64,000 bases of DNA from contig NZ_VAJL01000001.1 of NCBI RefSeq assembly GCF_006175945.1, positions 4,663,916 to 4,727,915 of the forward strand, written 5' to 3'. Below are positions 25,571-63,840 of this stretch, in pieces (position 1 is the first letter of the stretch; each line of letters begins with the position of its first letter). The notes beneath the pieces are model-generated. The model saw nothing but the letters and a program-made list of their open reading frames with translations. It had not been told where the DNA came from and did not search any database. This stretch comes from Chryseobacterium mulctrae (GTDB lineage Bacteria; Bacteroidota; Bacteroidia; Flavobacteriales; Weeksellaceae). Position numbers and translations under genes: made by a program.

Positions 25571-25746
25571 GAATTATTTTTTATAAAAATAGTGTTTTAT
25601 CATGAATGACCGAATGAATATTAAAAGGTTAATGCGTTTTATTTTAATCAAACTTTAGCTTTCCTATTAATTTAAACCTAAATACGGTTTCCCGTAAAGA
25701 AATAATCCAATGTTTGTGTATTATTGCAGCACAAAAACTAATAACC

Positions 25747-27513: not shown

Positions 27514-27544
27514 TTTGTTGGAATAAAAAAACTTTCTATATTTG
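27514..27544 (+). promoter_or_regulatory. Promoter of tRNA-Ser
   Basis: TTTG (27514-27517), 19-bp spacer, then TATATTTG (27537-27544): a textbook Bacteroidota primary-sigma promoter 35 nt before the mature tRNA. Confidence 0.8.
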
Positions 27545-27578
27545 CACCACTGAAAACAACGATACAATCGGAGTTTAA

Positions 27579-27663
27579 GGAGAGATGGCAGAGTGGTCGA
27601 TTGCGATAGTCTTGAAAACTATTGACTGTAACAGGTCCGGGGGTTCGAATCCCTCTCTCTCCG
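27579..27663 (+). tRNA. tRNA-Ser(UGA)
   Basis: 85-nt class II tRNA. The acceptor stem is GGAGAGA/TCTCTCC with discriminator G; the anticodon stem is ATAGT/ACTAT around loop CTTGAAA, giving anticodon UGA; there is a long variable arm and a T-loop TTCGAAT. CCA is not encoded. The 3' end is the attachment site of the island that follows, and the gene is intact at the left junction. Confidence 0.96.
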
Positions 27664-27664
27664 C
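27642..27664 (+). repeat. attL: 3' end of tRNA-Ser
   Basis: GGTTCGAATCCC followed by TCTCTCTCCGC. The last 15 bp (27650-27664) are identical to the right copy; the only mismatches are the AA at 27648-27649. Confidence 0.85.
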
Positions 27665-27668
27665 AAAA

Positions 27669-27700
27669 AACCCTATAAACATAATGTTTATAGGGTTTTT
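27669..27700 (+). terminator. Terminator behind tRNA-Ser, supplied by the island
   Basis: CCCTATAAAC / GTTTATAGGG stem followed by TTTTT. It lies just inside the left junction, so integration replaces the tRNA's own downstream terminator (the analogous hairpin beyond attR at 55708) with this one. Confidence 0.75.
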
Positions 27701-27707
27701 CATTTTT

Positions 27708-27729
27708 AGGTGCTAACATAGGTGCTAAT
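27708..27729 (+). promoter_or_regulatory. Left pair of putative integrase arm sites
   Basis: AGGTGCTAA at 27708 and AGGTGCTAAT at 27720, 12-bp period, same orientation. The same pair with the same period occurs at 55533-55554 just upstream of the integrase. Matched repeats inside both ends of an integrated element are the expected arrangement for arm-type binding sites of a tyrosine recombinase. Confidence 0.6.
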
Positions 27730-28019
27730 TCTGATTACTTGTATTATAATACATAATTATATTTTATTAGAGTGCTTTTTATTTTCTATCAATATTTAAA
27801 AAGACATTTTCTATTTTTACAAGAAGAAATGAATAAGCTATTTAGTTTAATCAATCTTAAAAGAGCACTAGCAAACGTAAAACTTTGGTTGGGTATTTAT
27901 TTTTTGTGTAGTATTGCAAACATTAAATATATAGATATCTAGAATGTTGATATGCACTAAAAGTAGCAGGTGTGAACAATTTAGCTATTATTGTATAGCA
28001 AAAATTCTGACAAGTTTGA
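27730..28019. other. Non-coding left end of island
   Basis: AT-rich, with no convincing gene or RNA. It probably contains the promoter of the AcrVA2-like gene. Confidence 0.4.
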
Positions 28020-29195
28020 ATGACAATGAAAGAACAGGAATTACTATATCATTTTCCATTTAGAATCGACAAAGAACAAAATTTTAGACACTTTGCAAAC
28101 GATTTTACCCATAACAGCTTTGTCAAACGGTTTGTTACCAATTATGACGGAACAAATGTTAACGAATTCATTAAAAACAAAACATCCCTTACTATTGAAC
28201 AAATACACGAGTTTGAATATCTATATTCAAACTTTACACATTGGAGTGATTGGTATAAGAATGGGCGAAATATTTTTTCATTTTCCAAAGAACTTTTACT
28301 TTTATTGGACAAAACTGATGTTAGTGATGTAAAGCCAGACCTTTTCAAACTTCCTTATGACATCTTCTATCTTTCTTTAAAACCACTTAATCTCAAACTA
28401 TCAAAAAATAGTGATGCAGTTATTGAAGGTGTTTATATTGACCACAATATTTGGAATATAATGGGAGAACACCCAGAAGGTTATTGTGATTTAAGTTTCT
28501 ATTTTGCTGGTGAATTTAAAGAATCATTCCTAAAATACATATCAACCGTAAAAAGTAGTACGCAACCCTTTACGAATTCTGACGAAGTAGATGAAGCTCC
28601 TCTAGGTACATTTTGGAATATTTACTTGTGGTTTGAGAAAGAAGAGAAACGAGAAACAGTGAGGGAAGCTTTGGATTATTTCATAAGTGATCTTAAAAAT
28701 GAAATATTTATAACCAATAAAACGCCTGAACAAATAACGGACTTTGACTTAGAGTTTTATTCTGACACAATTGAGCTGTTAGAAAAGACTATTAATTTGG
28801 TTATTAACTGTTTGCTTTACTTATCACAACCTAAAGATAAACAGGACATAGAAAAAAAATTCCCAACAGGCTTACCGGGGAATTTTGAAAAGAAAATGTC
28901 ATTTGCCAAAACTGAAAAAGAAAAGAAAAAAGTTGCCGACAATATTGAGCAATCAGGATTTAGCAAAATAAATTATGTCGGACAAACATTTAAAAGAAGG
29001 TATAACGAAATAATAAAAACAAACTTAAGTGTTCAACCACATTGGCGACGTGGACATTGGAGGAATCAAAAATTTGGAGAGAAGTTACGGGATAGCAAAC
29101 TTATTTGGATTATGCCGACTATTGTAAAAAGTGAAGTTGGACAACCAACAAAGGGTCATTTATATAATGTGCAAGACGTCACAAAGAATAACTGA
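28020..29195 (+). CDS. AcrVA2-like family protein
   Basis: 391-aa cytoplasmic protein. The C-terminal PHWRRGHWRNQ followed by KLIWIMPTIV closely resembles the C-terminus of the anti-CRISPR AcrVA2 as I remember it (RPHIRRGHW... then a W-x-P-x-V strand). AcrVA2 stops Cas12a production, but homologues are widespread on phages and plasmids in hosts without Cas12a, so an anti-CRISPR role here is only a possibility. It is the first cargo gene at the left end of the island, a place where early-expressed anti-defence genes are often found. The N-terminal half has no motif I recognise. Confidence 0.6.
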   Translation: MTMKEQELLYHFPFRIDKEQNFRHFANDFTHNSFVKRFVTNYDGTNVNEFIKNKTSLTIEQIHEFEYLYSNFTHWSDWYKNGRNIFSFSKELLLLLDKTDVSDVKPDLFKLPYDIFYLSLKPLNLKLSKNSDAVIEGVYIDHNIWNIMGEHPEGYCDLSFYFAGEFKESFLKYISTVKSSTQPFTNSDEVDEAPLGTFWNIYLWFEKEEKRETVREALDYFISDLKNEIFITNKTPEQITDFDLEFYSDTIELLEKTINLVINCLLYLSQPKDKQDIEKKFPTGLPGNFEKKMSFAKTEKEKKKVADNIEQSGFSKINYVGQTFKRRYNEIIKTNLSVQPHWRRGHWRNQKFGEKLRDSKLIWIMPTIVKSEVGQPTKGHLYNVQDVTKNN

Positions 29196-32554: not shown

Positions 32555-34441
32555 CTATAAAAATGCGTTGAAAAGTTTTGTCCATTTTTCCACATAGTCT
32601 TGTGGTAAAGAATCAGCTTTTTTATTTTTTAATTGAGCTTTAGCAGCCATAGATATCCCTACTTTCCATCCTTTTTCTAATTCAATCCCATTAGCTTCAG
32701 CAAATGTTTCAATTTGAGCTACTACTGGAGTGTCTTTACTATAATTATCTTCAAAATCTATCTCATCTAAGGAATTAAAAAGTCTGTCAATGCCTTTCTT
32801 TATCAAAGCAAAAGGAATCAAATCTTCCACTTCTGATTTTTCAATTTCAGCATAATCTTTAACATCAAGTATTCTATCCTCAAATCCCTTATACAAACCG
32901 GATAATAATCTTTTCTTTGCATCTTCACCACTCTTATCCGAATCGATAATTAGATACGGTATATCATCTGCTTTACTTGAAATCATACTAACAACCCCCG
33001 GAACTCCTTTAACTCCTCCTGATGGTACAAATACAATTTCTTGTTCCGGAGCAATAAGCTTTTCTCTAATTAAAAATCCCTTAATAGCATTAAGATAGAA
33101 CTGGTCAGATGGCCCCTCTACTACAATAGCTTGGCAGCCTTGTAATAAAACGTCTGAAACACTTAGTCCTAAAGCAGCGTGAACTGCGTAAATAGATTTT
33201 TCATTTAAAGCATCACTTCCTTGTCTTAAATTACTTGAAGCTACTGTATATCCATCTTTATCCATATACACAACCCTGCATTTATCTATGTTAGAAGTGT
33301 CAACAATAAATGGAGAATGCGTTGTATTAATTATTTGATTACCTTTTGATAAATTGTCAAAAAATATTGCTAAATCTTTTTGTGCTAAAGGATGTAAAGT
33401 AAGTCCAGCTTCGTCAAGCAATAAAATTGCACCCTTATGCCGTTCCTGGCTTTCAACAAGGAAAATCAAGTAAAAACTGATAAACCATTGAAGTCCTGTA
33501 CTACGAAGTTCTAATGCCACTTCGTCAGTTCTCACACTGTCAGATACCCATATTCTGAAATAGTCGCCATCTGCTTCAAATCTAAATTTATACTCACCTT
33601 GCTTCCACCATTCTTTAAATCTTTTTGTCAGATCACCTGAAGCTGACTGTAAAAGGATACTACGTTCTTCCTTATCATTTTCCGCCTTCCTAATTTCTTC
33701 AGCAGTAGGTTGATTTTCTCCGTTTCTGCCGTTCCTAAGCATTGCCATTTCTTTGGGATCTTTTCCTAATTCCAAAATCTCTTTAGGGTCTAATTTCACG
33801 AATTCAAAGAGCACTCTTAATGTTCTTACTTGCTCTTCATTGATATCAATCCCGTCTACAGTTTGCCCCTTTAACCATTTGATAACATTTGGAAGATAAA
33901 TTTTTGAAGATAGATTTCCATAGTTTGAATAATAAACAAATGATGGTAATTCGGCAAGAATAGCGTTTTCTAGGTCGGCATCTTTATATGGTACAATAAC
34001 ATCTTCTTCAATTGACTCTTCATCTTCTTCAACTTCTTTTGTTACTTTTTCTATCTTCTTAGATACTGGATCACCACTTGGAAACTCGAAAATGTAACTC
34101 CCGTCATATAAACGTGCAACAGTTACTGATTTATCTCCTTGCAAACTACATTCAACCTCAGTCTCAATATTCTTTATGCTTTCATCATCAAGCTCAAACT
34201 CCGCTGTAATGAATTTTATATCTTTTGGGGTTTTTCGATAAGTACTCAGTTTAGAAACCGGCATATCGTGTAAAATATCAATTTTTCCTTCTCTTGCTGG
34301 ATTTAGTTTCCATAAAGCTAAAAGCAAGTTTGACTTTCCAGCCTCATTAATTCCAACCAATGTTGTTACATTATCACAATCAATCCAACCACTATCAAGA
34401 ACTGATCGGAAATTTTCTACTTTGTATTTTTTTAGTATCAT
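32555..34441 (-). CDS. OLD-family ATP-dependent nuclease (ABC ATPase + TOPRIM)
   Basis: 628-aa protein. The N-terminal SMC/ABC-like ATPase has Walker A GINEAGKSNLLLALW (about residues 30-44) and Walker B ILLLDEAGLTLHP with the D-loop/His NTTHSPF; the C-terminal TOPRIM domain has VVEGPSDQFYLNAIKG and the DxD motif YLIIDSDKSGED. This is the class 1 OLD arrangement known from P2 Old and Gabija GajA. No GajB helicase is adjacent; instead it is the third gene behind an XRE-ImmA/IrrE protein and a 163-aa unknown. DNA cleavage in phage defence is the likely role. Confidence 0.85.
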   Translation of the reverse strand: MILKKYKVENFRSVLDSGWIDCDNVTTLVGINEAGKSNLLLALWKLNPAREGKIDILHDMPVSKLSTYRKTPKDIKFITAEFELDDESIKNIETEVECSLQGDKSVTVARLYDGSYIFEFPSGDPVSKKIEKVTKEVEEDEESIEEDVIVPYKDADLENAILAELPSFVYYSNYGNLSSKIYLPNVIKWLKGQTVDGIDINEEQVRTLRVLFEFVKLDPKEILELGKDPKEMAMLRNGRNGENQPTAEEIRKAENDKEERSILLQSASGDLTKRFKEWWKQGEYKFRFEADGDYFRIWVSDSVRTDEVALELRSTGLQWFISFYLIFLVESQERHKGAILLLDEAGLTLHPLAQKDLAIFFDNLSKGNQIINTTHSPFIVDTSNIDKCRVVYMDKDGYTVASSNLRQGSDALNEKSIYAVHAALGLSVSDVLLQGCQAIVVEGPSDQFYLNAIKGFLIREKLIAPEQEIVFVPSGGVKGVPGVVSMISSKADDIPYLIIDSDKSGEDAKKRLLSGLYKGFEDRILDVKDYAEIEKSEVEDLIPFALIKKGIDRLFNSLDEIDFEDNYSKDTPVVAQIETFAEANGIELEKGWKVGISMAAKAQLKNKKADSLPQDYVEKWTKLFNAFL

Positions 34442-34978: not shown

Positions 34979-36154
34979 TTATACAGTTAATAGTTCTCTT
35001 ATTTTCAATGATGCTTCTCTAATTGATTCTACATCCCAATTAGCAACATTCAATTTTTTCGTTATATTTTTTATGTTTGGAAAAGCATCTTTAAATGCAG
35101 CCCAGTAATCATTTCCTAATTCAGATTGCCTCCATTGATATTGAGAATAAATAATACAAGGATGTATTTGACATTCCTTAGCAAATTTTGCTACCATAAA
35201 TTTATTGTGAATCATCTTTTCGATGTATCTCATTTTCTCTGAGGATAATAAATATTCGGAGGCAAATTCATTTGCTTTATCTTCCTGAATCAAAAATAAA
35301 TCTGGTTCTCCCGATAAATGGTAACTTATTTTCTGGATTGTTTCCAAATCAAATAGTACGTGATGTAATTCGTGTATTAATGCAAACCAGATCGTAGCAT
35401 AATTCTTATTGAAATCAGTGATAACAATACACGGTTTATTATTTATGAAAAAAGTTGCACCTCTTATCTGTGTTTTAGGTAATAATGGCTGAAAAACAAC
35501 TGTAACACCAATATTATATAATGCTTGAAAAACGGTTACCAGTCCATTTTCTATATTTTGAGTGTAAGGTTTGATTTTAGGAATTAGTTCAACTAAACTC
35601 TTTCTGCTATATTCATTTGGATTATCAATAAGCTCGAAATATTTATAGCTGGATTTTATCCAAAAGTCTTTCATTTTATCACTGAATGATTTTTTAGTCC
35701 TACTATAAAGAGCATCGCTTAACTCTCTATCATAATCGTAAATAGAATCTAGGTCAAAAAAACTACAAATACGATCTTTCAGAGTTTCTAAAGAATCATT
35801 CTTTTGAATAAATCCTAATACTGCTAATGTTTTTAAATCAAAATATTTATTGATGAATGTGATATCCATTGATGATTGTAACTCTCTGATTTCTTCTACA
35901 GGTCTATCTTTGAAATAAATAATGAGTAACTCACTTAAATCAACTTCCAAAAACTCCGTAAGCTTCAATAATTTAATAATATCAGTTTGCTTAGAAGTTT
36001 TATCTAAAATAGCATCCAAACTTCTTCTCTCCATTCCGGATAGCTTTTCAAATTGGGTTTTTGTCAAGCCCGATTCCTCCAACTTAATTGCAAATAAATC
36101 TTCAATCGAAGATCCATCATATCGAAGGCTCTTATGTAATAAGTTATCTATCAT
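34979..36154 (-). CDS. XRE HTH + ImmA/IrrE metallopeptidase regulator
   Basis: 391-aa fusion. The N-terminal helix-turn-helix (LEESGLTKTQFEKLSGMERR) resembles XRE/HigA-type regulators; the C-terminal zinc peptidase has HELHHVLFD (HExxH) and a downstream EDKANEFASEYLL Glu motif. ImmA/IrrE peptidases cleave XRE repressors in response to DNA damage or mobile-element signals. First gene of a three-gene operon with the 163-aa unknown and the OLD nuclease. Two identical palindromes flank its promoter, so it probably controls its own operon. Confidence 0.8.
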   Translation of the reverse strand: MIDNLLHKSLRYDGSSIEDLFAIKLEESGLTKTQFEKLSGMERRSLDAILDKTSKQTDIIKLLKLTEFLEVDLSELLIIYFKDRPVEEIRELQSSMDITFINKYFDLKTLAVLGFIQKNDSLETLKDRICSFFDLDSIYDYDRELSDALYSRTKKSFSDKMKDFWIKSSYKYFELIDNPNEYSRKSLVELIPKIKPYTQNIENGLVTVFQALYNIGVTVVFQPLLPKTQIRGATFFINNKPCIVITDFNKNYATIWFALIHELHHVLFDLETIQKISYHLSGEPDLFLIQEDKANEFASEYLLSSEKMRYIEKMIHNKFMVAKFAKECQIHPCIIYSQYQWRQSELGNDYWAAFKDAFPNIKNITKKLNVANWDVESIREASLKIRELLTV

Positions 36155-36446: not shown

Positions 36447-38060
36447 TTATTTACTTTCTGTATAAATCCTACCTTCTTCAATAGATACGTAATGTAATTC
36501 ACATATCAATTTCTCAACAATCACTGTCATTTGATCAACCTCTTCCTCTTTTAAATTAGTAATATGATGATGAAGAACCATATGGTAATCTAAATATGGG
36601 AAAAACTTAGTCCAGAATTCTTCAAACAGATAATTATATTTTCTCAACTCAGGATTTGCAAACTCGCATAACTTCCACAAACTGTAATTGGATAAATAGT
36701 TGGGCATATAGTAAAGCTTAGCGTAAATGTACGTCCTGCAAAATGAAAGAAAAAATAGGGTAAAGAAATATGGCAAGCCCTGATAAATTTCTCTTCCATC
36801 TTCTGCTATTGCAAGGAATTGTTGCGAATACTTCATTGTTGCATCATTGTAATAATCAAGATCTGCATAAGTGGGAATGTGAGGATTTTCCCAATGAGGT
36901 TCAGGATAGAAAGGATTAGATTGATAAATTCTGTTTTTGCCCTGAATAATGTCTACAAAGAAGCTTTGATAAAAATGTAGATTCTTCTGAACCCAATACC
37001 GATCGTGGCTGATCAGAACAAAATCAAAATTGTTACCTGTGTGACTCTTCAATGACTGCGCTATAGATTTTAATTTATCATTACCAACATTAAGACCAAG
37101 CAACAACAAATAGTAGGTTGTATTACTACCGTAAATAGCTGTGTGAAACAGATAGATTTCTTCGACCTCGACAGACTTTACAATTACTTCTACAACAATA
37201 TCAAGAACCACATCTTTATCATTTTCCTTAACTGTTTCAATGATTTTTTCCTCGTCAGCATATCCTATTTTTATCATTTTATTTAGCTGATACAATCGTT
37301 TTTCAATCATTCCGGAAAGACTATTCTCAGCGATATTGAACGCTTCGAACATTTCACTTTTAAAAAATAGATCATCTTTCGATGCTTCTCTCGCTTTTCC
37401 GATTAAATGAATCAGGTAATATTCGCTTCGGCTTTGAGAAACGAAATGACTCTGTACCTCAGGAATATGTTTGGAGAGGTTTCTTATTCTTTCGTTCAGG
37501 TTTTCTGAATTGGAACTATTTCCTGTATATAATTCTTCTAAGTATTCCAGATCATACTTAAAAACATTTTCATAAGCTAACAAGGCACTTACTGATGATT
37601 CATCCGTAACAAATCCTCTAACCTGCGTTAATAATAAATCGTGATCGTGAAAAAAGGAATCTTTATACTTCTCGAATTTCTTCTCGAATTTTTTCCTTTC
37701 TCTTGTAATAAGTAAATGGTTTCCATAATCAGCATTTTGATAAAAAATTGCTGATAGTCTGCAATACAATTCAACGAAAGGATCTCCGAGAGAGAATTTA
37801 TGGTGAATTTGTGAAGAGTAAAAAATACACACTTTAACTTTGTATTCTTTAAAAGCTTTTTCTACCCATTTTTTTCGCATTAGCTCCTCCACATCTTTTT
37901 TGTGTTCAACAACAATTATGAGGTGAGCATACTCTGAATTGTCAGTCTTATTGAAAAATATCTGAATGATAAGATAATGCTGTTTGAAAAGTTGATTGAT
38001 AGAACTATCTAAAAATTCGTTGCCAATTTGTGCAAATTGAAATTTATTTGAAGTTTTCAT
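36447..38060 (-). CDS. Unknown 537-aa protein, last gene of trio
   Basis: Start set at ATG 38060 (MKTSNKFQFAQIG); the longer frame begins with GTG inside the upstream gene. The N-terminal part has alternating strands and helices (HLIIVVEHKKDVEEL, VKVCIFYSSQIHH) that could be a nucleotidyltransferase-like or Rossmann-like domain. A SRSEYYLIHLIGKAREA segment has an R-x6-H spacing of the kind seen in HEPN domains, but this is weak. The C-terminal half is helical and aromatic. I do not recognise the family. It follows the 213-aa gene by 4 nt. Confidence 0.55.
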   Translation of the reverse strand: MKTSNKFQFAQIGNEFLDSSINQLFKQHYLIIQIFFNKTDNSEYAHLIIVVEHKKDVEELMRKKWVEKAFKEYKVKVCIFYSSQIHHKFSLGDPFVELYCRLSAIFYQNADYGNHLLITRERKKFEKKFEKYKDSFFHDHDLLLTQVRGFVTDESSVSALLAYENVFKYDLEYLEELYTGNSSNSENLNERIRNLSKHIPEVQSHFVSQSRSEYYLIHLIGKAREASKDDLFFKSEMFEAFNIAENSLSGMIEKRLYQLNKMIKIGYADEEKIIETVKENDKDVVLDIVVEVIVKSVEVEEIYLFHTAIYGSNTTYYLLLLGLNVGNDKLKSIAQSLKSHTGNNFDFVLISHDRYWVQKNLHFYQSFFVDIIQGKNRIYQSNPFYPEPHWENPHIPTYADLDYYNDATMKYSQQFLAIAEDGREIYQGLPYFFTLFFLSFCRTYIYAKLYYMPNYLSNYSLWKLCEFANPELRKYNYLFEEFWTKFFPYLDYHMVLHHHITNLKEEEVDQMTVIVEKLICELHYVSIEEGRIYTESK

Positions 38061-38064
38061 TTTA

Positions 38065-38706
38065 TTAAATTTGGGGGTCGTGATTTTCGGGATTAAAATA
38101 GAAGTAAAGAGATTCCAGAAACACACGGATTAAGGAGAACCACATCATTAAATCAATATGCTCCTGCAATTCTTTATCTTTCTCAAGTTTCAGAATATCA
38201 TCGATAGTAAAATCTGAATTGCCAATCTTTTCGAGAAACTTTTGGTAGTAATCTTCGCCAATAACGGAAAGGACACCCAGAAAAAGCTCTTTTAAATAAT
38301 CATCCAAAGGGATCGAACTAATGATATAGTTTTCGGCTTGGTAGGAATTGCTATTTTCAGTTTCCTTCAAAGGAAGGCTATTGCCAAATTCATCTATAAA
38401 ATTAGTAAAGCTTGAGATCAAAAATTGCAGGCAGGTTAGTAATCCGGCAATCTTTAAACTATGGGGATCAATATTTGGAATTTCAATGTTTCCTGAAAAC
38501 ATTTCTTTGATACTATACTTTTGTATCAATCTAGGATATCGGTCAAAAAGCATATTTATGTCTTCACTTCCTAATTTATCCATAAGTAGATAAATACCTT
38601 TATTAAGTTCATCTATCTGTCTGTTATCTGACAACAACTTAAAACTGATATCAACCTTTTCCATCAAGTCGATGATTCTTCTGTTAGTTTTTTCTTTATT
38701 TCTCAT
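38065..38706 (-). CDS. Unknown 213-aa protein, middle gene of trio
   Basis: Soluble, almost entirely helical 213-aa protein with many Leu/Ile heptad-like stretches (IKEMFSGNIEIPNIDPHSLK, then LQFLISSFTNFIDEFG). No motif or family recognised. It is coupled to the 537-aa gene downstream (4 nt) and separated by 67 nt from the 184-aa gene upstream. Confidence 0.5.
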   Translation of the reverse strand: MRNKEKTNRRIIDLMEKVDISFKLLSDNRQIDELNKGIYLLMDKLGSEDINMLFDRYPRLIQKYSIKEMFSGNIEIPNIDPHSLKIAGLLTCLQFLISSFTNFIDEFGNSLPLKETENSNSYQAENYIISSIPLDDYLKELFLGVLSVIGEDYYQKFLEKIGNSDFTIDDILKLEKDKELQEHIDLMMWFSLIRVFLESLYFYFNPENHDPQI

Positions 38707-39950: not shown

Positions 39951-39980
39951 AAAGGCTCAACCAAATTGGTTGAGCCTTTT
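39951..39980 (+). terminator. Terminator after XRE gene
   Basis: AAAGGCTCAACCAA / TTGGTTGAGCCTTT nearly loopless perfect stem followed by TT. It separates the XRE gene from the PrimPol-RT cassette. Confidence 0.85.
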
Positions 39981-40072: not shown

Positions 40073-41086
40073 ATGGAAAATATTATTGTTTCTTATCAAG
40101 ATAATTTTTGGGGTAAAATATCTCACCGAAAATTATTAGATGTTTTAGAGGAGATAAAAAGTGAACAACATAAAATCATTACAGATCATTTAAGACATCA
40201 TTATCTAAGTGAAGATGGTCTTTATGGAATAAAAAAGAAGAAATTACCTGTAGCTACTTTTTGTGCAAATTTCAATGATTCCTCTAGAACAAAAGAAAAT
40301 CTCAATAATTATAATTCATTAATGATTATCGATATAGATGATATTGGATTAGAAAATGTAAAGAATGTTTTTGAGCAATTATCTTCAGATATTTATTTGT
40401 TCGCTTTATGGTTATCACCTTCAGGTAACGGTATAAAGGGGTTAATACAAATTAGTTTTGAGGAAAATATAAATTCAAACGAAATTGATATCTGGCATTA
40501 CTCAGCATTTTCAAAAATCTCATCCTACTTTAAAGAAAAATATCAAATCGACTTAGATCAGAGCGGTAAAGATTTTACTCGACTTTGTTTTATTTCAAAA
40601 GATGAAAATATTGTTATTAAAAACGACGAAATCACAGAAAAATTCTTAATAAAGAAGGATGCAAAATTAGAACTACAAACTACAACTGTAGCTCAAATAA
40701 GATCTGTTAAAGGGATAGTGAGTGCGAAAGAAATGAAGAATATTCTTAATAATCCACTAAATAGAAATAGCCCAACCAAAAAGAAAGAAATTCAAAACAT
40801 TATAAAATTCCTAAATAAAAATAAAAAATCAATTACCTACGAATACGATAACTGGTTACGAGTTGCTTTAGCTATTTCTAGCTCGTTTACTTATGATTTG
40901 GGGATCATTTTTTTTATTGAACTAAGTAAAATGGATGAATCAAAATTTAACGAAACTAACTGTACTAATATGTTGAAGGAATGTTATATCAATAATAAAA
41001 AAATGATTAAATTTAACACAGTAATACATTTGGCGGTACAAAAAGGATTTATATATAAAAAAGATTTTGGTTTGGAGAGTAACTAA
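40073..41086 (+). CDS. BT4734/VirE-N type PrimPol-like protein with PriCT domain
   Basis: 337-aa protein; start at ATG 40073. The N-terminal domain has SLMIIDIDDIGLENV (DxD of an archaeo-eukaryotic primase fold), WLSPSGNGIKGLIQI and DFTRLCFIS, the three blocks seen in BT4734/BF3469-family proteins. The C-terminal YDNWLRVALAISSSF and FNETNCTNMLKECY resemble the PriCT_2 domain that follows many PrimPols. The usual C-terminal helicase is absent. It could prime or extend nucleic acid. The RT follows in the same direction after 137 nt, and a structured segment overlaps the end of this gene. Confidence 0.7.
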   Translation: MENIIVSYQDNFWGKISHRKLLDVLEEIKSEQHKIITDHLRHHYLSEDGLYGIKKKKLPVATFCANFNDSSRTKENLNNYNSLMIIDIDDIGLENVKNVFEQLSSDIYLFALWLSPSGNGIKGLIQISFEENINSNEIDIWHYSAFSKISSYFKEKYQIDLDQSGKDFTRLCFISKDENIVIKNDEITEKFLIKKDAKLELQTTTVAQIRSVKGIVSAKEMKNILNNPLNRNSPTKKKEIQNIIKFLNKNKKSITYEYDNWLRVALAISSSFTYDLGIIFFIELSKMDESKFNETNCTNMLKECYINNKKMIKFNTVIHLAVQKGFIYKKDFGLESN

Positions 41087-41214
41087 ACGGTAACTTATTT
41101 AATGAGTGGATCGTGTTGGCACTACTGGATATAAAAATCGGTTCACACCGCAGTAGTTGGTAAGTTGGCAATTGTCAGTATTATGGTTTAAAATCGGGGA
41201 CTCTCCATCCATTA
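41073..41214 (+). ncRNA. Candidate structured ncRNA preceding the reverse transcriptase
   Basis: Between the PrimPol and RT genes, nested complementary segments are visible: ACTACTG (41121-41127) with CAGTAGT (41151-41157), containing the hairpin CGGT-TCAC-ACCG (41139-41150). Outside it, TAACTTA (41091-41097) pairs with TAAGTTG (41161-41167), with one G-U pair. Two alternative closing stems exist: TGGAGAGT (41073-41080) with ACTCTCCA (41200-41207), or AATGAGTGGA (41101-41110) with TCCATCCATT (41204-41213; one mismatch and one wobble). Retrons and several defence RTs carry such an RNA just upstream of the RT. Ends and use are not known. Confidence 0.5.
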
Positions 41215-41223
41215 TTTATTTTT

Positions 41224-43203
41224 ATGTTAGAAGACTATTGTAATAGAGAAGAAATTCTATTTCGCTTGTGTAAAGCAAGAGCAAAACTTGCAAGACATCG
41301 TGGTAAATCGCATCTTGATCATATCATTTCTGCTGACCAGAATTACAATTATCACTATAATAATCAAAAAAGTAATAGACATAAGGGAAATGACATTGAT
41401 TTATTATGCTCAATAATGCCATCTCGCAGAAAATGGATTAATCCCACAATAAAGGAAAGGTATCCTAAAAATGATGGTCAACGCATAAATTCTGTAGATC
41501 ATAATACCAGAGCTTTATTAAAGACTATTTATCATTACAGAAAAACTAACCCAACAGAACCCTTTTTACTTAGATTAGAAAATTTTATTGATGAGATAAT
41601 TGAGTCAGTCAATGATAAAAGTTTTTCGCTTACATCGCCACAGATATTATCCAAGCTTAAAAAACCAAATGACAAAAGCTGTAAAATTTGTCGTCCAATT
41701 TGTGTTTTCCCACTAAAAGATAAAATTATAATTTCAATTATAAATAAATATTTGACAAAGGCATTTGATAATATTTTTTATAATCATTCCTACGCTTTTA
41801 GAGCAAAAAAAGACAACGCAAAATTTCCTCCAACCCATCATAGTGCCATAGAATATATTCTAGAATACAAAAACAAATATAAAGGAAAACGTTTGTGGGT
41901 ATCTGAATGTGATATCAGTAAATTTTTTGACACAGTGAATCATAATATAGTTAAGGAAAAATTTAGAGATGTCATAAAAATACATAACAAAACCAATGAA
42001 GTAAAAATTGATAACCGGGCAATTTTAATATTCAACAAGTACTTACAATGTTATGATTTTCAAAAATTTGTATATGCCCTTAATGATGATAAGAATTATT
42101 GGATTGAAAGAAAGAGAGAGGGTGGAAGTTTTGAATGGGTAAAAGATGACTTACTTAAATTAAATTGTTATAAAAATATTAAGAGAAATCGCATTGGAAT
42201 TCCACAGGGTGGTGCATTATCAGGTCTGATTGCAAACATTGTTCTGCATAGTATTGATATGGAAATGAAAGCTGATGAAGATGAAAAGCTATGTTATGTA
42301 AGGTTCTGTGATGATATGCTTTTAATTCATCCTAATAGAAAAATTTGTAATGAAAAAACTGATATTTATTTTAATGGCTTGGAAAAGCTAAAGTTAATTT
42401 CTCATCCTCCTAAACCTGTTAACGAAATAAATAAAAATTTTTTTTGGAATGATTCAAAAAGTAAATCGCCCTACAAATGGTCAAAATTTTCAAACAATTC
42501 TTTTGATCGAATTGGTTTTGTTGGTTACGAAATATGTTATAACGGGACTTTAAGGGTAAGAAAGAGTTCACTAATTAAAGAAAAACGTAAAATAAGAGAT
42601 TTAACAGAACACACACTATCAATATTAAAAAATGGGAAAAGAAAATCAGACGATATGATTTTAGAGTCTGTTTCAAACAAACTCATAGGAATGTCCGTTG
42701 GAAGAGTGACTATGAAAAACCATAAATTCTCTGATAATGAAATGTGTTGGGTAAATGGATTTACATTACTGCGCAATAATCACAATTTACGAACACAGCT
42801 AAGGAGATTGGACTACTATAGGTCAAAACATTTATCTAGATTTAAAAAGAAACTTGCAAAGATTCCGGAAGCAAAACCAAGAACATCTGACGAATCAAGA
42901 AAAATCGGAAAACATTTTTTTATCAAAATAGGTGGAATATCCTATGCTGACTCAGAAGCTATCAGACTTGAACTTCAAAATACTAAAATCTTAAATACTA
43001 AATTTGTTTTATCTAAATACAGAAAAGAGCTGTTAATAAAAAATTCTAATCTTTTGGTTCTTTCAGGAAGATATATCTCATATTTACCACAGATTTATAA
43101 TTTATTAATTGAAAATGAAAAAGAAGATCGATATGTACCCTACTATGGTAAGCCATTTAGTTACTTTTATCACGTTATAGATAAGAAACGTTCTGATTCA
43201 TAA
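41224..43203 (+). CDS. Reverse transcriptase of unassigned class (659 aa)
   Basis: RT blocks in order: CVFPLKDKIIISIINKYLTK and YNHSYAFR; SECDISKFFDTVNH with catalytic D230; RIGIPQGGALSGLIANIVL (PQGG at 327-330); and YVRFCDDML with D363/D364 (FCDD instead of the common YADD). GFVGYEI follows. About 90-150 residues precede the RT core and over 200 follow, far larger than a retron RT, and no maturase X/En pattern, protease or integrase is seen. Retron-type NAxxH and VTG motifs are not apparent. It probably belongs to the group II-like or unknown-group RTs, many of which are anti-phage systems. It is preceded by a structured segment and a PrimPol-like gene. Confidence 0.8.
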   Translation: MLEDYCNREEILFRLCKARAKLARHRGKSHLDHIISADQNYNYHYNNQKSNRHKGNDIDLLCSIMPSRRKWINPTIKERYPKNDGQRINSVDHNTRALLKTIYHYRKTNPTEPFLLRLENFIDEIIESVNDKSFSLTSPQILSKLKKPNDKSCKICRPICVFPLKDKIIISIINKYLTKAFDNIFYNHSYAFRAKKDNAKFPPTHHSAIEYILEYKNKYKGKRLWVSECDISKFFDTVNHNIVKEKFRDVIKIHNKTNEVKIDNRAILIFNKYLQCYDFQKFVYALNDDKNYWIERKREGGSFEWVKDDLLKLNCYKNIKRNRIGIPQGGALSGLIANIVLHSIDMEMKADEDEKLCYVRFCDDMLLIHPNRKICNEKTDIYFNGLEKLKLISHPPKPVNEINKNFFWNDSKSKSPYKWSKFSNNSFDRIGFVGYEICYNGTLRVRKSSLIKEKRKIRDLTEHTLSILKNGKRKSDDMILESVSNKLIGMSVGRVTMKNHKFSDNEMCWVNGFTLLRNNHNLRTQLRRLDYYRSKHLSRFKKKLAKIPEAKPRTSDESRKIGKHFFIKIGGISYADSEAIRLELQNTKILNTKFVLSKYRKELLIKNSNLLVLSGRYISYLPQIYNLLIENEKEDRYVPYYGKPFSYFYHVIDKKRSDS

Positions 43204-43304
43204 AGCGTTATTTTTTTACTAATAAGTGATAATAAACAATAAATCTATAAATAATTGATTTTTAAGTTTTTTCAACTTGTCAAATACTCTTCAAATATTA
43301 GAAC

Positions 43305-43802
43305 CTATTTTTTAGTTTGCTTCTCAACTTCAGAAATTAAATCATAATTAAAGAATAATTTTCTCTTTTTTACGGAGTTAATGATTTGTTTCTGATATTT
43401 ATCAATTAGATATGTTTCTATTTCTAGCCTCCCGAAATTAACTTCGATAAAAGTAATATGTAATTCTTCATCAAAATATTTGTCCAGCAATACTTCTATT
43501 TCGGAATCATATTTTTCACTTGATTTAATTCCTCCAAATTTTAATTTACCAATCTTCTTTCTGAAAGTATGATTCACAGTTCTAGTTATATCAGACATTC
43601 TCTTACATAAATTACCTGTCTCTCCAATATATATTATTTTATCATTTCCTTCAAAGATTGCATATATGCCAGGAACATTTTTAAAATATTGTTTCCTCCA
43701 AATTAATGTTCTTTCAAACTTTATCTTAGGAGATTCAAATAATAATTTTTCTGCAAGAATTAAATTTTTATATAACTCATTATCTTCAAGATTAAAAATC
43801 AT
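43305..43802 (-). CDS. GIY-YIG nuclease family protein
   Basis: 165-aa protein with the GIY-YIG core: PGIYAIFEGNDKIIYIGET, then NLCKRMSDI (conserved Arg) and a downstream Glu in the ITFIEVNFGRLEIETYLI helix. It is a stand-alone domain without an obvious DNA-binding extension. It is convergent with the RT gene (101-nt gap), so it is not in the RT operon. It may be a selfish or defence nuclease. Confidence 0.75.
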   Translation of the reverse strand: MIFNLEDNELYKNLILAEKLLFESPKIKFERTLIWRKQYFKNVPGIYAIFEGNDKIIYIGETGNLCKRMSDITRTVNHTFRKKIGKLKFGGIKSSEKYDSEIEVLLDKYFDEELHITFIEVNFGRLEIETYLIDKYQKQIINSVKKRKLFFNYDLISEVEKQTKK

Positions 43803-43930
43803 AATTTTAGCTATATTTTTTATTTATTATTAATCATTCGAAAATTTGAAAGAGAAGAAAAAATTTAATTTCTCAGTAGGATTGTCGAGGAAAACTATCA
43901 TTTTGACAAACTGATGTTGTAGGTATGACC

Positions 43931-44641
43931 TTATTCTACATTAGGCAATTTTGTCCTTAAACGCATTTGCATTTCATCTTTTCTTCGAGTACTTTTTATT
44001 TTCGCTAGAACTTCCATAGCGTTAGTTAAACTTGTTTCATAATATCCTTTATTGCCGTTTTCTTTTTCGAGATCACATAACATTAAATATGTGTCAAATT
44101 TCAAAATCCTGTTGTCGTCATTTTCAGGTAAATCAAGTGATAATGCTTCGTCATAATATTTTCGCCCTAAATCCTCTTTCTCATTGGTAAAAAGAAAAGT
44201 CCCAAAGCCTCTTAAATTCATAAGTTTAATTGGTTTGGAAATTGATTTTTCAATGGTTTTCTTCCAAAACAACTCAGATTTTTCTTGGTCACCGATTGTT
44301 GAATATGCACTTGCTAAAATGTTACAGTCGATTTCTGTTGCGAGCTTATCATATCTTTGTACAAGATAGTCAGCGTGTGCAATTAAAATTCGTCTTTGAG
44401 AATTATAATTACGTCTAAGTAAAATATTAGATTCGGAATTGAAATCGATATCTTTTGTAGCTCTAAGCTTTGTAGTTTCGATACCAATTTTAGAAATGCC
44501 TTCTAGGGTGTCGGTTAATGTTTTGCGGATAGTCCTTTTGGTCTCCTTGTTTTTTTGAATTAATGTAATAATCAAAGAAGCAATGGAAATCGTCAAAGCA
44601 CAACCGCTTAAAGAAACTATAATGTAATCTTTTGTTTCCAT
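43931..44641 (-). CDS. Membrane-anchored TPR-like protein of unknown function
   Basis: 236-aa protein with one N-terminal membrane helix (IIVSLSGCALTISIASLII) followed by a basic KNKETKRTIRK stretch, so the rest is cytoplasmic by the positive-inside rule. The remainder has helical pairs typical of tetratricopeptide folds (NILASAYSTIGDQEKSELFW, then RKYYDEALSLDLPEND). No family recognised. Confidence 0.5.
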   Translation of the reverse strand: METKDYIIVSLSGCALTISIASLIITLIQKNKETKRTIRKTLTDTLEGISKIGIETTKLRATKDIDFNSESNILLRRNYNSQRRILIAHADYLVQRYDKLATEIDCNILASAYSTIGDQEKSELFWKKTIEKSISKPIKLMNLRGFGTFLFTNEKEDLGRKYYDEALSLDLPENDDNRILKFDTYLMLCDLEKENGNKGYYETSLTNAMEVLAKIKSTRRKDEMQMRLRTKLPNVE

Positions 44642-45018
44642 ATAAAGTTTTTAAAAATAATCTTATATTATTTTTGGTTAGTGTATTAAATGTAAAGAAA
44701 AAGCGGAAAGTTACTGTTATAGTTTATATTTTTTTCAAACCTACATACCAAATCTTTAAATCTGAATAAATACAACTAACTATTTCTCAAAAGTCTTAAA
44801 ATATCATCCAATGCAGAACAGGGAATGTTATTCTTCAGACAGTTTTTATGCTATTTCCCAATAGATATCCTAAAATAAAATATATAACTCTTTATTTCAT
44901 CAATAACAGTTCATTTCAAGATTTGACAATTGCTTACTTTCTGAATTATAACAGTAATTATTAAAGGTGTAAACTCTAATTTTATAACTTCTCCGCTATT
45001 CATTGGTTATTTTTTGCT
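44642..45018. other. Gene-poor spacer with a possible decayed frame
   Basis: AT-rich. On the minus strand a short frame ending at 44776 (tail IPCSALDDILRLLRNS) looks like the end of a lost gene, but no start or homologue can be assigned. Otherwise nothing is seen. Confidence 0.3.
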
Positions 45019-45384
45019 TTAAGATTTTTGAGTATCATAAACTAGCAAACCTTCATCAAACCAAACATCTTCGTATCCATTATTATCAAATAAAAAACGA
45101 TTACCGGCAGGAAGTGTCAAATATTTTAAAAGTTCAGGATAGTATTCTTCTAAATGAAAGATATGCATCGGCTTAAAAAAATCATCTGCATCTGAATATT
45201 CTCCAGCCCAAATATACCATCCTGAAGAATCTCCTTCAGGAAAATGTCTTAGTCCATTTATGGGCATCACACCACTTTTTATATTATCGGAAATCCCTAC
45301 TTTTAATTCTTCAGATGTAGCAAAAAAATCTTGCGAATATTTTTCGCAAATATCTTTTTGCTCCTTGACATATTTATTGTCCAT
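45019..45384 (-). CDS. Probable immunity protein for the Rhs toxin tip
   Basis: 121-aa acidic protein. The block NGLRHFPEGDSSGWYIWAGE, followed by PAGNRFLFDNNGYEDVWFD, is of a kind common in immunity proteins of polymorphic toxin loci (possibly the Imm33-like group). It overlaps the end of the HNH toxin frame by 11 nt, the standard toxin-immunity arrangement, so it should neutralise that nuclease in the cytoplasm. Confidence 0.6.
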   Translation of the reverse strand: MDNKYVKEQKDICEKYSQDFFATSEELKVGISDNIKSGVMPINGLRHFPEGDSSGWYIWAGEYSDADDFFKPMHIFHLEEYYPELLKYLTLPAGNRFLFDNNGYEDVWFDEGLLVYDTQKS

Positions 45385-46525
45385 TTGTTCTTTGATTTAT
45401 TATTTTTTTCATTTCTTTTGAGTATTTACTCATTGCGGCTCCTTGTTGAGATGAACAAGTTTGACATTGAGGTTGAATAGCGTTCATTGACCTCATATTA
45501 GTCTGATTAATCGTACCAGTTTGATAATGTTCTTGGACTAAAGGTTTTATATGGTCTGCGACATTTTTTTGTCCAGTAGCTCCACAAGTCACGCAAGGCT
45601 CACCTTGAACCGCCGCTCTTTGTGCTGCTGTAGTGGCGTTGTTAGGTCTTTTGTACAAAGTGTTTGTAACAGGTTCAGTAATTTTATTCGCACCACTTGA
45701 TTCTGCGCCCAATAAAGGAGAAACACTTCCCGCCATTTCAAGAGCTTTTCCAACAGGCGTTGTTGCGCTTGGAGGATTCAAATTCATATTTGGGTCTGGA
45801 CTAAATGTCGCAATTTTCCAAACATCATATAGCCCATTAATTGCAGCAGCAGCTCCCGTCAAACTTGCAGAGATAGCATCTCTGGTAAAATTAGACAATT
45901 GAAGCATTGAAGTAGTTGTACCTGCAGGTATAGATTGTGCTTGCCCATTAAATCCTAAGTAAACAGCACCTGCACTACCTCCCTGTCCTTGTATCGTAGC
46001 ATTACTGAGTACAGACCCATCATCTTTATAGTCGGAGAATCCTTGTTGTTGATAATTGTCGGTTGTTAAACTTGCACTCCAACTCCAAGTATTGTCTTTT
46101 AATCCCCATCCTAAACCTTCTCTACCATCTGGATCAATAACATTTACTGGATCATTAAAAGCATAATTATATGGTGTCCAACTAGAAAACTCTTCGCTCA
46201 AAGGGTCAGGAGAAAACCAGCGTCCTGCGGTATCAAGATAAGGCTGTGCGTCAGGATCGCTCAAATCTATTTCTCTAAATTCAGTAATCTCTCTAGTTTT
46301 CCTGTTAAATTTTACAGAGCCAATACTTACAATACTATCAATATCGTGAGCTTCTAAATATTTTCCTTTGCTTAAAGTGGCAATCTTTGGATAAAAGCCA
46401 TATTTCTTAAAAGGATTGGACGCTTCAATATTCTTTCTTCTTCGCTCGGCTTCTTGTGATGTTAAAGAATCCCTTGTTTTTAAGACTTCATCCATATATG
46501 TGGAAAAGACGGTCAAATTGACCAC
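45374..46525 (-). pseudogene. Truncated Rhs-family toxin: core end plus HNH nuclease tip
   Basis: Only the C-terminal part of an Rhs protein remains: GRWFSPDPLSEE and TPYNYAFNDPVNVIDPDG mark the end of the Rhs core, followed by a roughly 240-aa variable tip. The tip ends in an HNH-like zinc nuclease (CVTCGATGQKNVADHIKPL, then QPQCQTCSSQQG). The open frame begins with a GTG inside the end of the IS21-family element, and no Rhs coding sequence is found on the other side of that element. The long N-terminal Rhs shell and export signals are gone, so it cannot work as a normal secreted toxin. Confidence 0.75.
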
Positions 46526-46680: not shown

Positions 46681-48231
46681 ATGGCAAATAAAATAACAGA
46701 CATGAGTAAAATTAGAAAAGTCATAAAATTCTACAGCACTGGAAAGAGCAAGTTATTTATAAGCAGCTATTTATCCCTTTCCAGAAATACCGTTAAAAAA
46801 TACATCTCATTGTATGAGATTCTGGGCTTAAACCTTGATGCGATCAATGCCAAGACAGATGCCGAGCTGGAACTTTTGTTTTCCAATACCACCGCGGAGT
46901 CCATTAGCCCCAAACTACAGTCCCTGTACGATTTTTTCCCAAAGATGGAACGTGAGCTCAAAAAGGTAGGAATCACTATCCATCATATGTGGGAGCAATA
47001 TCTTGCACTGCATCCTGATGGTTTTCAGAGTTCACAGTTCCGGCATCATTACAAGATATGGGGCAAGCGTGTGAACCCGGTGATGCATATGAATCACAAA
47101 TCCGGTGATAAGATGTATGTCGATTATGCAGGGAAAACACTCTCCATTATTGATAAGGAAAGCGGGGAGCTTAAAGAAGTTCAGTTTTTTGTAGCTATTC
47201 TGGGAGCAAGCCAGTACACGTATGCTGAAGCCTCTATGAGCCAGCAGAAGGAAGATTTTGTACGTTCTGTAGAAAATGCCATCCGCTTTTTTGAAGGCAC
47301 ACCGGCAGCGATCGTTCCTGATAATTTAAAATCCGCAGTGATCAAAAGCAGCCGTTTTGAACCCACCATCAATGAGACCCTGGCCGATCTGGCCGAACAT
47401 TATGAAACGACCATCTTGCCTGCCAGGGCTTACAAACCGAGGGATAAATCCTTGGTAGAGGGAGCGGTAAAGATCCTGTACAGAAGGATCTACGCCAACC
47501 TTCAACAGGGATCCTGCGGCCTGGATGAACTAAATAGTGAGATCTGGGATCTGTTGGACTCTCATAACAAACGCAAGCTCACAGGACGCCCTTACTCCCG
47601 CTACGAGCTGTTCCTGGAGGACGAGAAGCAGCAGCTGCGCCCACTGCCTGAGCGTCGTTTTGAGATCAGGTACCAATCCTTTGCAACAGTGATGCAGAAC
47701 GGGCACGTACAGTTGAGCCGGGATAAGAACTACTACAGTGTTCCGTACCAGTATATCAAGAAAAAGATCAAGATCCTATACACATCTTCCACTGTGGAGA
47801 TCTACTATAAATACAACAGGATCGCGATGCACAGACGCAATTACAAGCCTTATGTCTACACGACCATTACAGAACATTTAGCCAGCACCCACCAGTTCGT
47901 GGCCGGATGGAGTGCTGCCCGCTTTATCGATTGGGCAAACAGTATTGATACTGCAGTGGGAGAATATATCCTCCAAATTATCGACAGTCGGAATCATCCC
48001 GAGCAAGCTTACAAAAGCTGCCTGGGAATCCTGAACTTCGAAAAGAAAGTAGGAAGAGAGCGATTGATAAATGCTTGTAAACGGGCATTGGATTTTAAGA
48101 TCTACAGCTTTAAGACCGTACAGAAGATATTGGAGAACAATCTGGATCAGATGATCGATCCGGAAAAAGAAGAAAAGGAGCAGGAACTGCCTGATCACGG
48201 CAACATCAGAGGAAAACAATATTATCATTAA
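46681..48231 (+). CDS. istA: IS21-family transposase IstA
   Basis: 516-aa DDE transposase. An N-terminal HTH (GKSKLFISSYLSLSRNTVKK) precedes a retroviral-integrase-like core with the first Asp in MYVDYAGKTL, the second in AIVPDNLKSAV and the Glu in DKSLVEGAVKILYRRIY. The frame is intact and full length for the family. istB follows after 12 nt. Confidence 0.95.
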   Translation: MANKITDMSKIRKVIKFYSTGKSKLFISSYLSLSRNTVKKYISLYEILGLNLDAINAKTDAELELLFSNTTAESISPKLQSLYDFFPKMERELKKVGITIHHMWEQYLALHPDGFQSSQFRHHYKIWGKRVNPVMHMNHKSGDKMYVDYAGKTLSIIDKESGELKEVQFFVAILGASQYTYAEASMSQQKEDFVRSVENAIRFFEGTPAAIVPDNLKSAVIKSSRFEPTINETLADLAEHYETTILPARAYKPRDKSLVEGAVKILYRRIYANLQQGSCGLDELNSEIWDLLDSHNKRKLTGRPYSRYELFLEDEKQQLRPLPERRFEIRYQSFATVMQNGHVQLSRDKNYYSVPYQYIKKKIKILYTSSTVEIYYKYNRIAMHRRNYKPYVYTTITEHLASTHQFVAGWSAARFIDWANSIDTAVGEYILQIIDSRNHPEQAYKSCLGILNFEKKVGRERLINACKRALDFKIYSFKTVQKILENNLDQMIDPEKEEKEQELPDHGNIRGKQYYH

Positions 48232-48243
48232 ATATCAACAGTT

Positions 48244-48981
48244 ATGAACGAACCGACAGTGAGCAAAATGAAGCAAATGAAGCTTTACGGCATGCACAAT
48301 GCCTTTAAGACCGCTATTGAAAGCGGAAGGACAGACCATTATACCCTCGACCAGTTTATATCGATGCTCATCGATGCCGAATGGGATGAGAGGCACAACA
48401 GGCGCATAGAGCGAAGCATCAAAAATGCAAAGTTCCATTACAGGTCCAGTATTGAAAGTATCAACTTCGATGACACCCGCAATCTCGACCGTAATCTGGT
48501 AATGCGTCTTGCAGGATGTGAGTTCGTAGAAAAAAATGAAAACATCCTGATCACAGGAAGTACAGGCGTGGGTAAAAGTTACCTGGGAACCGCATTGGGC
48601 TATCAGGCCTGTATCGAAGGCTTCAAGGTCAATTATTTTAATACTTCCAAGCTGTTTGCCAAACTAAAAATGGCAAAAGCAGACGGGTCATACCTGCGCG
48701 AACTTGCAAAAATACAAAGACAGGATGTGATCATCCTTGATGATTTTGGTCTTCAGGCTTTGGACAGTGCCAACAGGATAACCCTTCTGGAGATCATAGA
48801 AGACCGTCACAACAACGGATCCATCATTGTAACATCGCAGATCCCGGTGCAGGGCTGGTATGACATTATTGGTGAAAAGACCATTGCCGATGCTATTCTG
48901 GACAGACTTATACATCAGTCTCACCGCCTGGAACTCCAGGGGGAATCTATGAGAAAAAAGAGAGGAGTTAACAGGGAGTAA
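48244..48981 (+). CDS. istB: IS21-family helper ATPase IstB
   Basis: 245-aa AAA+ ATPase related to DnaC. Walker A is ITGSTGVGKSYLG, Walker B is DVIILDDFG, and the sensor region is IIVTSQIPVQGW. IstB loads on target DNA and activates IstA. It is intact, so the element may still be mobile. Confidence 0.95.
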   Translation: MNEPTVSKMKQMKLYGMHNAFKTAIESGRTDHYTLDQFISMLIDAEWDERHNRRIERSIKNAKFHYRSSIESINFDDTRNLDRNLVMRLAGCEFVEKNENILITGSTGVGKSYLGTALGYQACIEGFKVNYFNTSKLFAKLKMAKADGSYLRELAKIQRQDVIILDDFGLQALDSANRITLLEIIEDRHNNGSIIVTSQIPVQGWYDIIGEKTIADAILDRLIHQSHRLELQGESMRKKRGVNRE

Positions 48982-63513: not shown

Positions 63514-63780
63514 ATGGATATCACCAACGATTTTAAAGAAGAAATCTTAAACTCTCCTACATCAATTGAAAATATCGAGGTCGTTTATAAAAAAATAAAT
63601 ACAATGGAAAACTTGTAAAAGTAAATCAATCCCCATTTGAGATGACAATCTTTAAATGATGATCTCAAAGATGATCCAACCACGTCATTGATTTTACCAC
63701 TTGCAGAAGAAATAACTATTAAATTTTTTGATGGCACAATAAAAACTGTAAATCGTCAGCAAAAAGTAGACACTATATAG
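63514..63780 (+). pseudogene. Hypothetical protein, frameshifted
   Basis: Starts MDITNDFKEEILNSPTSIEN. After shifts near 63600 and 63655, the reading continues LVKVNQSPFEMTIF and then DPTTSLILPLAEEITIKFF to a TAG at 63778-63780, about 88 aa in total. No family recognised. It lies directly before the IS3-type element. Confidence 0.4.
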
Positions 63781-63840
63781 TATATAAAGTTAAGGGAGTG
63801 TTTTCAAAAAAAGAATTACATTTAATTATGGAAACACCCT

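Follow-up and report, generated by a model that had tools for sequence, protein, structure and literature searches.

Several defence-associated reverse transcriptase (DRT) systems resemble the locus analysed here, a cassette of a primase-polymerase (PrimPol) gene, a non-coding RNA (ncRNA) element and a reverse transcriptase (RT) gene in Chryseobacterium mulctrae. DRT9 and DRT10 are reported to prime DNA synthesis from a C-terminal Ser/Tyr residue of the RT (PMC12489045; PMC12632851), DRT7 is protein-templated (PMC13213688), and in DRT3 two polymerases build the two DNA strands (PMC13174585). Our locus shares with DRT9 the RT fold, a structured RNA partner and conserved C-terminal tyrosines, but DRT9 has two components and no PrimPol, and it copies a conserved poly-U tract, where the conserved core here is GUCAGUAU. 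With DRT10 (UG17) it shares an adjacent structured RNA and a C-terminal Ser/Tyr priming residue (a candidate here), and tandem stretches precede some PrimPol-less RTs of its family, UG39; the DRT10 partner is, however, SLATT rather than PrimPol, and an A-B-A' template gained no support in the test applied to the PrimPol clade. DRT7 likewise brings an RT together with a PrimPol, but as one fused protein, and the review table consulted lists no ncRNA for it, whereas here two separate genes are accompanied by an RNA. Closest is the UG39/RTasVirE-PriCT2 candidate DRT, which is the same gene pair and matches both proteins over nearly their full length. It is known here as a pair of PADLOC model names, with no mention of an RNA partner found, and the UG39 family has a second half without PrimPol. 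These models reportedly derive from a 2022 survey of UG/Abi RTs.

The cassette lies in a 64-kb window, the whole stretch of DNA analysed, whose end coincides with the end of a 4.73-Mb contig. A preliminary description of the window had proposed a cassette of PrimPol, structured RNA and RT; that observation is confirmed, and its interpretation is supported. We read the cassette, with a probability of about one half, as a three-part UG39 system of RT, dedicated ncRNA and separate PrimPol, in which the RNA would template cDNA, the PrimPol would act on this cDNA and the outcome would be defence. By family scores, fold and the conserved structured element beside the RT, its nearest counterparts are the Class 2 DRTs, which use an ncRNA. 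The conserved folded RNA may template DNA synthesis by an antiviral machine for which few precedents exist. The other readings weighed below overlap with this one and with each other, and our confidences in them are not meant to sum.

A PrimPol gene, an RNA element and an RT gene form one cassette

40073-41086, forward strand: PrimPol gene, 337 aa from the ATG at 40073; BT4734-like_N plus PriCT_2, PADLOC RTasVirE-PriCT2
41072-41207, forward strand: conserved non-coding RNA element, 136 nt, overlapping the 3' end of the PrimPol open reading frame (ORF) by 15 nt
41224-43203, forward strand: RT gene, 659 aa, PADLOC RT_UG39

The two genes run in the same direction and are separated by a spacer of 137 nt (41087-41223). 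The RT belongs to Pfam RVT_1, has intact ECDISKF and RFCDD motifs, and matches PADLOC RT_UG39 at 634.8 bits (3.6e-191, profile positions 2-540 of 541); the next PADLOC family is Drt9, at 89.1 bits. All 20 further RTs tested are also UG39, 15 of them PrimPol-less. The PrimPol matches RTasVirE-PriCT2 at 374.7 bits (1.1e-112) and contains BT4734-like_N (5.2e-25) and PriCT_2 (2.1e-6) with no other Pfam domain, as expected of the helicase-free BT4734/PriCT PrimPol first described. Structure comparison indicates a fold like that of archaeo-eukaryotic primases (AEP-like), and an alternative start is possible at TTG 40055. Because both proteins match PADLOC candidate-defence models, they are, by profile, a catalogued DRT candidate pair and not new, which corrects the novelty implied by the preliminary description. 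The RNA element is the new part of the cassette: a literature search, in which the key 2022 survey was not covered, found no published description of a UG39 RNA partner.

Other RT classes fit poorly. Membership of DRT9 was rejected on its score, so that the likeness is one of fold only: in an AlphaFold2 model (mean predicted local distance difference test score, pLDDT, 87.9), the six best Foldseek rows were all DRT9 structures. DRT10/UG17 scores 73.5 bits, and the partner here is a PrimPol, not SLATT; DRT7/UG10 was set aside on its fused architecture, RT and PrimPol here being two ORFs. A CRISPR-associated RT/PrimPol (CAPP) reaches 63.3 of 200 bits, under the NCBIfam cut-off, for an RT that is UG39. 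The earlier view that the RT is neither a group II intron maturase nor a retron also holds: the NCBIfam maturase score of 98.9 bits falls short of the 300-bit cut-off, Rfam gave no intron RNA match, and the retron scores are 31.3 bits for RT_Ec107-like (PADLOC) and 24.4 of 600 for Retron_TIR (NCBIfam).

A protein search returned 942 homologues at E<=0.001 among 7996 candidates scored, including metagenomic RTs (P0004-P0015) with 54-88% identity. From 115 relatives (genome-contig scan, 32-row alignment) we assembled 80 loci, or 81 with the window, keeping near copies (e.g. L020/L021/L041, L043/L044, L058/L059/L075) in all counts. The preliminary description had proposed a search for conserved adjacency; run here, it placed a PrimPol relative beside the RT in 62 of the 81 loci, 55 on the same strand and 7 inverted. 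Among the 19 loci with no adjoining PrimPol, L034, L055 and L077 start at most 313 bases from the end of their contig, and the RT of L072 is incomplete. A tree of 74 RTs, rooted by midpoint only and omitting fragments and broken or cut RTs (L015, L041, L047, L055, L064, L072 and L078, five of which have a PrimPol), sets 14 PrimPol-less rows opposite 60 others across a branch with support 99/97. The 60-row side comprises 50 same-strand and 7 inverted loci, 2 truncated at contig ends and a single PrimPol-less one (L073). Moreover, PrimPol and RT distances co-vary over 57 loci (Mantel r 0.937; largest of 999 permutations 0.169), in a test that leaves shared species history in. Adjacency and co-variation, together with an RNA that stays 5' of the RT when the PrimPol is inverted, bear out the unity of the cassette, and these comparisons show that one half of UG39 is consistently accompanied by the PrimPol.

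The RNA element of the window is strongly constrained

41073-41080, forward strand: 5' arm of closing stem P1, UGGAGAGU, inside the PrimPol ORF; pairs with 41200-41207
41087-41114, forward strand: hairpin P2, predicted in the window and, from differing sequences, in its relatives
41121-41157, forward strand: candidate hairpin P3 (ACUACUG / CAGUAGU), prediction only
41174-41181, forward strand: conserved GUCAGUAU motif, a candidate for the template or for the start site of the PrimPol
41185-41195, forward strand: weak candidate hairpin P4, GGUUUAAAAUC, recognized by eye and by analogy with the covarying P4 of subtype B (below)
41200-41207, forward strand: 3' arm of closing stem P1, ACUCUCCA

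The element is 100% identical to that of the related locus L005 and 97.8% identical to that of L006, which exceeds the identity of the PrimPol DNA (96.0% and 88.4%, respectively), the RT DNA (91.5% and 89.9%), the upstream intergenic DNA (79.0% and 80.1%) and the downstream intergenic DNA (56.7%, L006 only). On this comparison, 41072-41207 is therefore under strong constraint, whether as RNA or as DNA. The differences from L006 amount to three mismatches and one gap, all within P2 and with pairing preserved; the 16 nt separating the element from the RT are identical at 15 positions, and 148 of 653 RT third codon positions differ. The candidate P3 is invariant in L005 and L006.

The RNA had initially been equated with the spacer. 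Most of the element does lie there, but it begins inside the PrimPol ORF, into which the 5' arm of P1 reaches by 14 nt; the same arm falls within the PrimPol ORF in 42 of the 47 same-strand loci measured, at a median of 30 nt. The claim that the spacer is structured also stands in modified form. Folded alone, the spacer shows no signal over shuffles (minimum free energy -25.1 kcal/mol against a shuffle mean of -26.8, z +0.53), and tRNA was the only Rfam match in the window at gathering scores; the structure becomes visible when relatives are compared.

A closing stem recurs before the RT across the family

The window groups in the RT tree with L005, L006, L007-L011 and L014 (support 98/94). 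In an eight-row RNA alignment of this subtype, from which L005 was omitted as identical to the window here, 92% of P1 cells are paired (14/500 shuffles as high). Four P1 cells carry double changes (shuffle mean 1.2, 0/500), the covariation score is likewise reached in 0/500, and double changes fall in only two pairs (45/500 shuffles as high). For a second group of 18 loci, subtype B, RNAalifold predicts P1, P2, P3 and P4. The fixed structure of 28 pairs, including one further, poorly supported helix (57% paired), is formed by 87.4% of cells, and 12 of the 28 pairs show double changes, in 47 cells (shuffle means 6.5 and 17.1; 0/500 as high for either). The pair-type count of 29 was reached in 140/500 shuffles. 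When slid along the alignment, the structure gathers at most 9 double-change cells, a comparison that favours the unslid structure, which was derived from these very sequences. Across the 72 loci in the closing-stem test, a P1 of the right spacing beats dinucleotide shuffles (p<=0.05) in 34/50 same-strand, 7/7 inverted and 8/15 PrimPol-less loci; the window's own value is p 0.13.

Covariance models extend the element to many relatives. Model R1, built from the 18 subtype B loci, also matches the RT 5' flank of loci outside the model, at E<=0.003 in L034, L019, L053, L016, L028, L020, L021, L041 and L045, with 112 bits for L034. Weaker R1 matches at this flank (L015, L017, L048 and L024, E 0.17-1.9) accompany four off-place matches at E>=1.6. 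Model R2 adds L012, L013, L024 and L031 at the right place (E<=0.021), with weak right-place matches in L067, L014, L050 and L023 (E 0.52-2.7) and off-place matches from E 0.38 upwards; the match in L014, a member of the window's clade, lies at E 0.93 among the latter. Neither R1 nor R2 reaches the window, and model R3, made from the window's own subtype, recovers only L005 and the window, both in the model, plus two off-place matches at E >4. The homology of the window's RNA to that of subtype B therefore rests on place, P1, the UCAGUAU motif and clade.

The seven inverted loci are informative, since in each the element keeps its place before the RT. A TAnnTTT(G/A) box stands just 5' of P1 in 7/7 of them (simple letter shuffle mean 0.46, 0/300), a count for which the pattern was loosened after the sequences were seen and to which near copies contribute three loci; the strict TAnnTTTG is found in 2 of 7 (2/300 shuffles). 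In Bacteroidetes promoters, the -7 box reads TAnnTTTG. The loosened box precedes P1 in 1/50 same-strand loci, which is consistent with co-transcription with the PrimPol there. Overall, these alignments show that the element belongs with the RT and is closed by P1.

The same data bear on whether the element instead acts in cis, as an mRNA structure governing RT expression, for example an attenuator or a signal for translation or RNA processing. An element ending 16 nt short of the RT start, with a promoter box of its own in just one of the 50 same-strand loci, would suit such a role. Yet the element retains place and strand, together with a promoter-like box, when the PrimPol is inverted, its conservation in the window's relatives exceeds that of coding DNA, and the related DRT2, DRT3, DRT9 and DRT10 have RNA partners. 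We regard a cis-acting role as highly improbable.

A conserved core, and repeats in the PrimPol-less sister group

With the five PrimPol-bearing loci dropped from the tree restored, the motif UCAGUAU occurs 20-110 nt 5' of the RT in 36/55 same-strand loci (shuffle mean 0.6, maximum 2), in 2/7 inverted loci and in 0/15 PrimPol-less loci. UCAGUAU, within GUCAGUAU in the window, is thus a candidate template or primase start site. DRT10-like A-B-A' repeats were detected at p<=0.05 in 3/46 loci, with none of at least 4 nt in the window, by a test to which an A/A' as short as 2 nt, which occurs in DRT10, is invisible.

The PrimPol-less group carries different upstream motifs, UUUCCAUAA and AUUCGAUU, each in 8/15 loci and found in 0/50 and 1/50 same-strand loci, respectively. 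AUUCGAUU sits in period-5 runs such as UCGAUUCGAUU, and at least two full tandem copies (p<=0.05) occur in 6/16 PrimPol-less and 6/50 same-strand loci. In L051, L052, L056, L057, L061, L063, L068 and L082 the order is UUUCCAUAA, then AUUCGAUU in a 5-nt run, then a hairpin recognized by eye, an arrangement that resembles a repeat template. In a single case, L071 (Dolichospermum), UACCCUACCCUACC lies 66-53 nt upstream of the RT start (p 0.015 vs shuffles) and would template telomere-like GGGTA repeats.

A further explanation takes the RNA as both scaffold of the RT and regulator, the DNA product being untemplated or protein-templated. DRT7, which also combines RT and PrimPol, sets the precedent, and no repeat template is demonstrable in the PrimPol clade. 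Set against this are the family scores and Foldseek comparison, which place the RT nearest DRT9 and DRT2, systems that copy their RNA, and the tandem stretches before the RT in 6 of the 16 PrimPol-less loci; we judge this explanation quite unlikely.

Catalytic residues and a putative priming tail

40331-40339, forward strand: PrimPol DxD pair, presumed catalytic, D87 and D89 counted from ATG 40073 (D93 and D95 from TTG 40055)
42304-42315, forward strand: RT active site FCDD (D363, D364), both aspartates present in 78/78 aligned RTs
43159-43164, forward strand: C-terminal Ser646-Tyr647 of P-F-S-Y, candidate priming residues, invariant in the 32-row RT alignment

The DxD pair is invariant in 59/59 aligned PrimPols, as are S121-P122-S123, G126, K128, D168, D173 and R176 (numbered from 40055). 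The S-Y tail is present in 66 of the 71 RTs with a readable tail, including 13/13 PrimPol-less ones. These residues bear on which protein starts synthesis. The PrimPol might lay a short oligonucleotide primer on the RNA for the RT to extend, the C-terminal tail of the RT serving otherwise. Such a role would accord with a steady partner whose active-site residues are conserved, with a UCAGUAU motif specific to PrimPol-bearing loci, and with the absence of the tail Tyr in 4/7 divergent PrimPol loci. However, the S-Y tail is kept without a PrimPol, and tails of this type are where DRT9 and DRT10 start synthesis. The PrimPol should therefore be dispensable for priming, and we consider primer-making by this enzyme unlikely.

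A proposed mechanism for the cassette

In the three-part reading that we prefer, the element would be expressed as RNA and bound by the RT, for which a short unpaired region around GUCAGUAU would be the cDNA template. Synthesis would probably be protein-primed, starting from the Ser/Tyr of the RT's own C-terminal tail. The PrimPol would then act on the cDNA, most simply by providing the second strand, primed or made from the complement of the conserved motif; such a second-strand or extension role is favoured over primer-making because the putative priming tail is independent of the PrimPol. Phage growth would be halted, probably through abortive infection, either by this DNA as such or by its accumulation when a phage infects.

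A more speculative extension embraces the whole family. UG39 RTs might be RNA-templated DNA-repeat machines, kin of DRT9/DRT10 and of telomerase-like enzymes. Part of the PrimPol-less half would copy 5-nt tandem templates (UCGAU repeats, or UACCCUACCCUACC in the one cyanobacterium), and in the PrimPol half the cDNA complement of GUCAGUAU would be a primase start site, so that double-stranded DNA is made by RT and primase in turn. We offer this as possible, though somewhat unlikely.

Genomic setting and distribution

The preliminary description had placed the cassette in a defence-rich tRNA island, behind an isolating terminator at 39951-39980. A hairpin of up to 12 bp is indeed present at 39951-39979, but it is followed by only four T and is absent from the terminator scan. 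The tRNA-Ser (27579-27664) lies about 12.4 kb off, with defence-like genes between it and the cassette and beside them: PD-Lambda-1 (25714-27450) adjoins the tRNA, and an OLD/AriA-like ATPase (32555-34441) and a weak PD-Lambda-2_B-like gene (34979-36154) follow. An IS21 pair occupies 46681-48981. These neighbours support a defence island without proving it.

They also count against the idea that the RT has been domesticated for housekeeping or for the upkeep of an element, a reading that concerns purpose and overlaps the other mechanisms. The cassette turned up in none of the phage records at 1e-20 and in a single plasmid record at 1e-40, which leaves room for such a role. Its spread is patchy, however: a UG39 RT is found at E<=1e-60 in 10/173 genomes of the genus and 13/320 of the family. 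Moreover, in four of the seven PrimPol-less loci with neighbours tested, the RT stands directly after an OLD-like ATPase (three) or a BREX brxL gene (one; the four are L056, L057, L063 and L068). A purpose other than defence is the least probable of the readings considered.

At L099 (G000:C1:196000-212000) the window's genome contains a second, inverted copy of window positions 41867-46500, 100% identical over 4634 bp and with the RT cut at about residue 215, and likewise of 27527-28805 (99.9%); two ORFs that resemble transposases, of IS3 type by eye, separate the two segments. A search of the window's genome found no second PrimPol. The last stretch of the window, 63747-64000, is a 98.8% match to the transposase region next to this second RT copy, which makes it probable that a repeat terminates the contig. 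Upstream of the cassette, 36447-38706 holds two adjacent genes (559 and 213 aa) that also lie upstream of it in L005 and L006 and have no convincing Pfam or PADLOC family. Downstream, a large ORF in 45019-46525 combines a core stretch resembling Rhs with a tail that contains Cys. A small gene follows it, and the two may be a contact toxin and its immunity gene; PADLOC gave no match for the large ORF.

Implications for the UG39 family

If the proposed reading is true, the cassette would be a three-part machine of RT, RNA and primase, undescribed in the literature covered. Unusual ways of synthesizing DNA are emerging rapidly from DRT systems, in which each new RNA partner is a testable template. 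PADLOC represents the family by two protein models; to these an RNA element is now added, with its likely ends, closing stem and core. Moreover, UG39 offers a natural experiment: RTs with and without a primase, preceded by different upstream elements, make the role of a PrimPol beside a defence RT testable.

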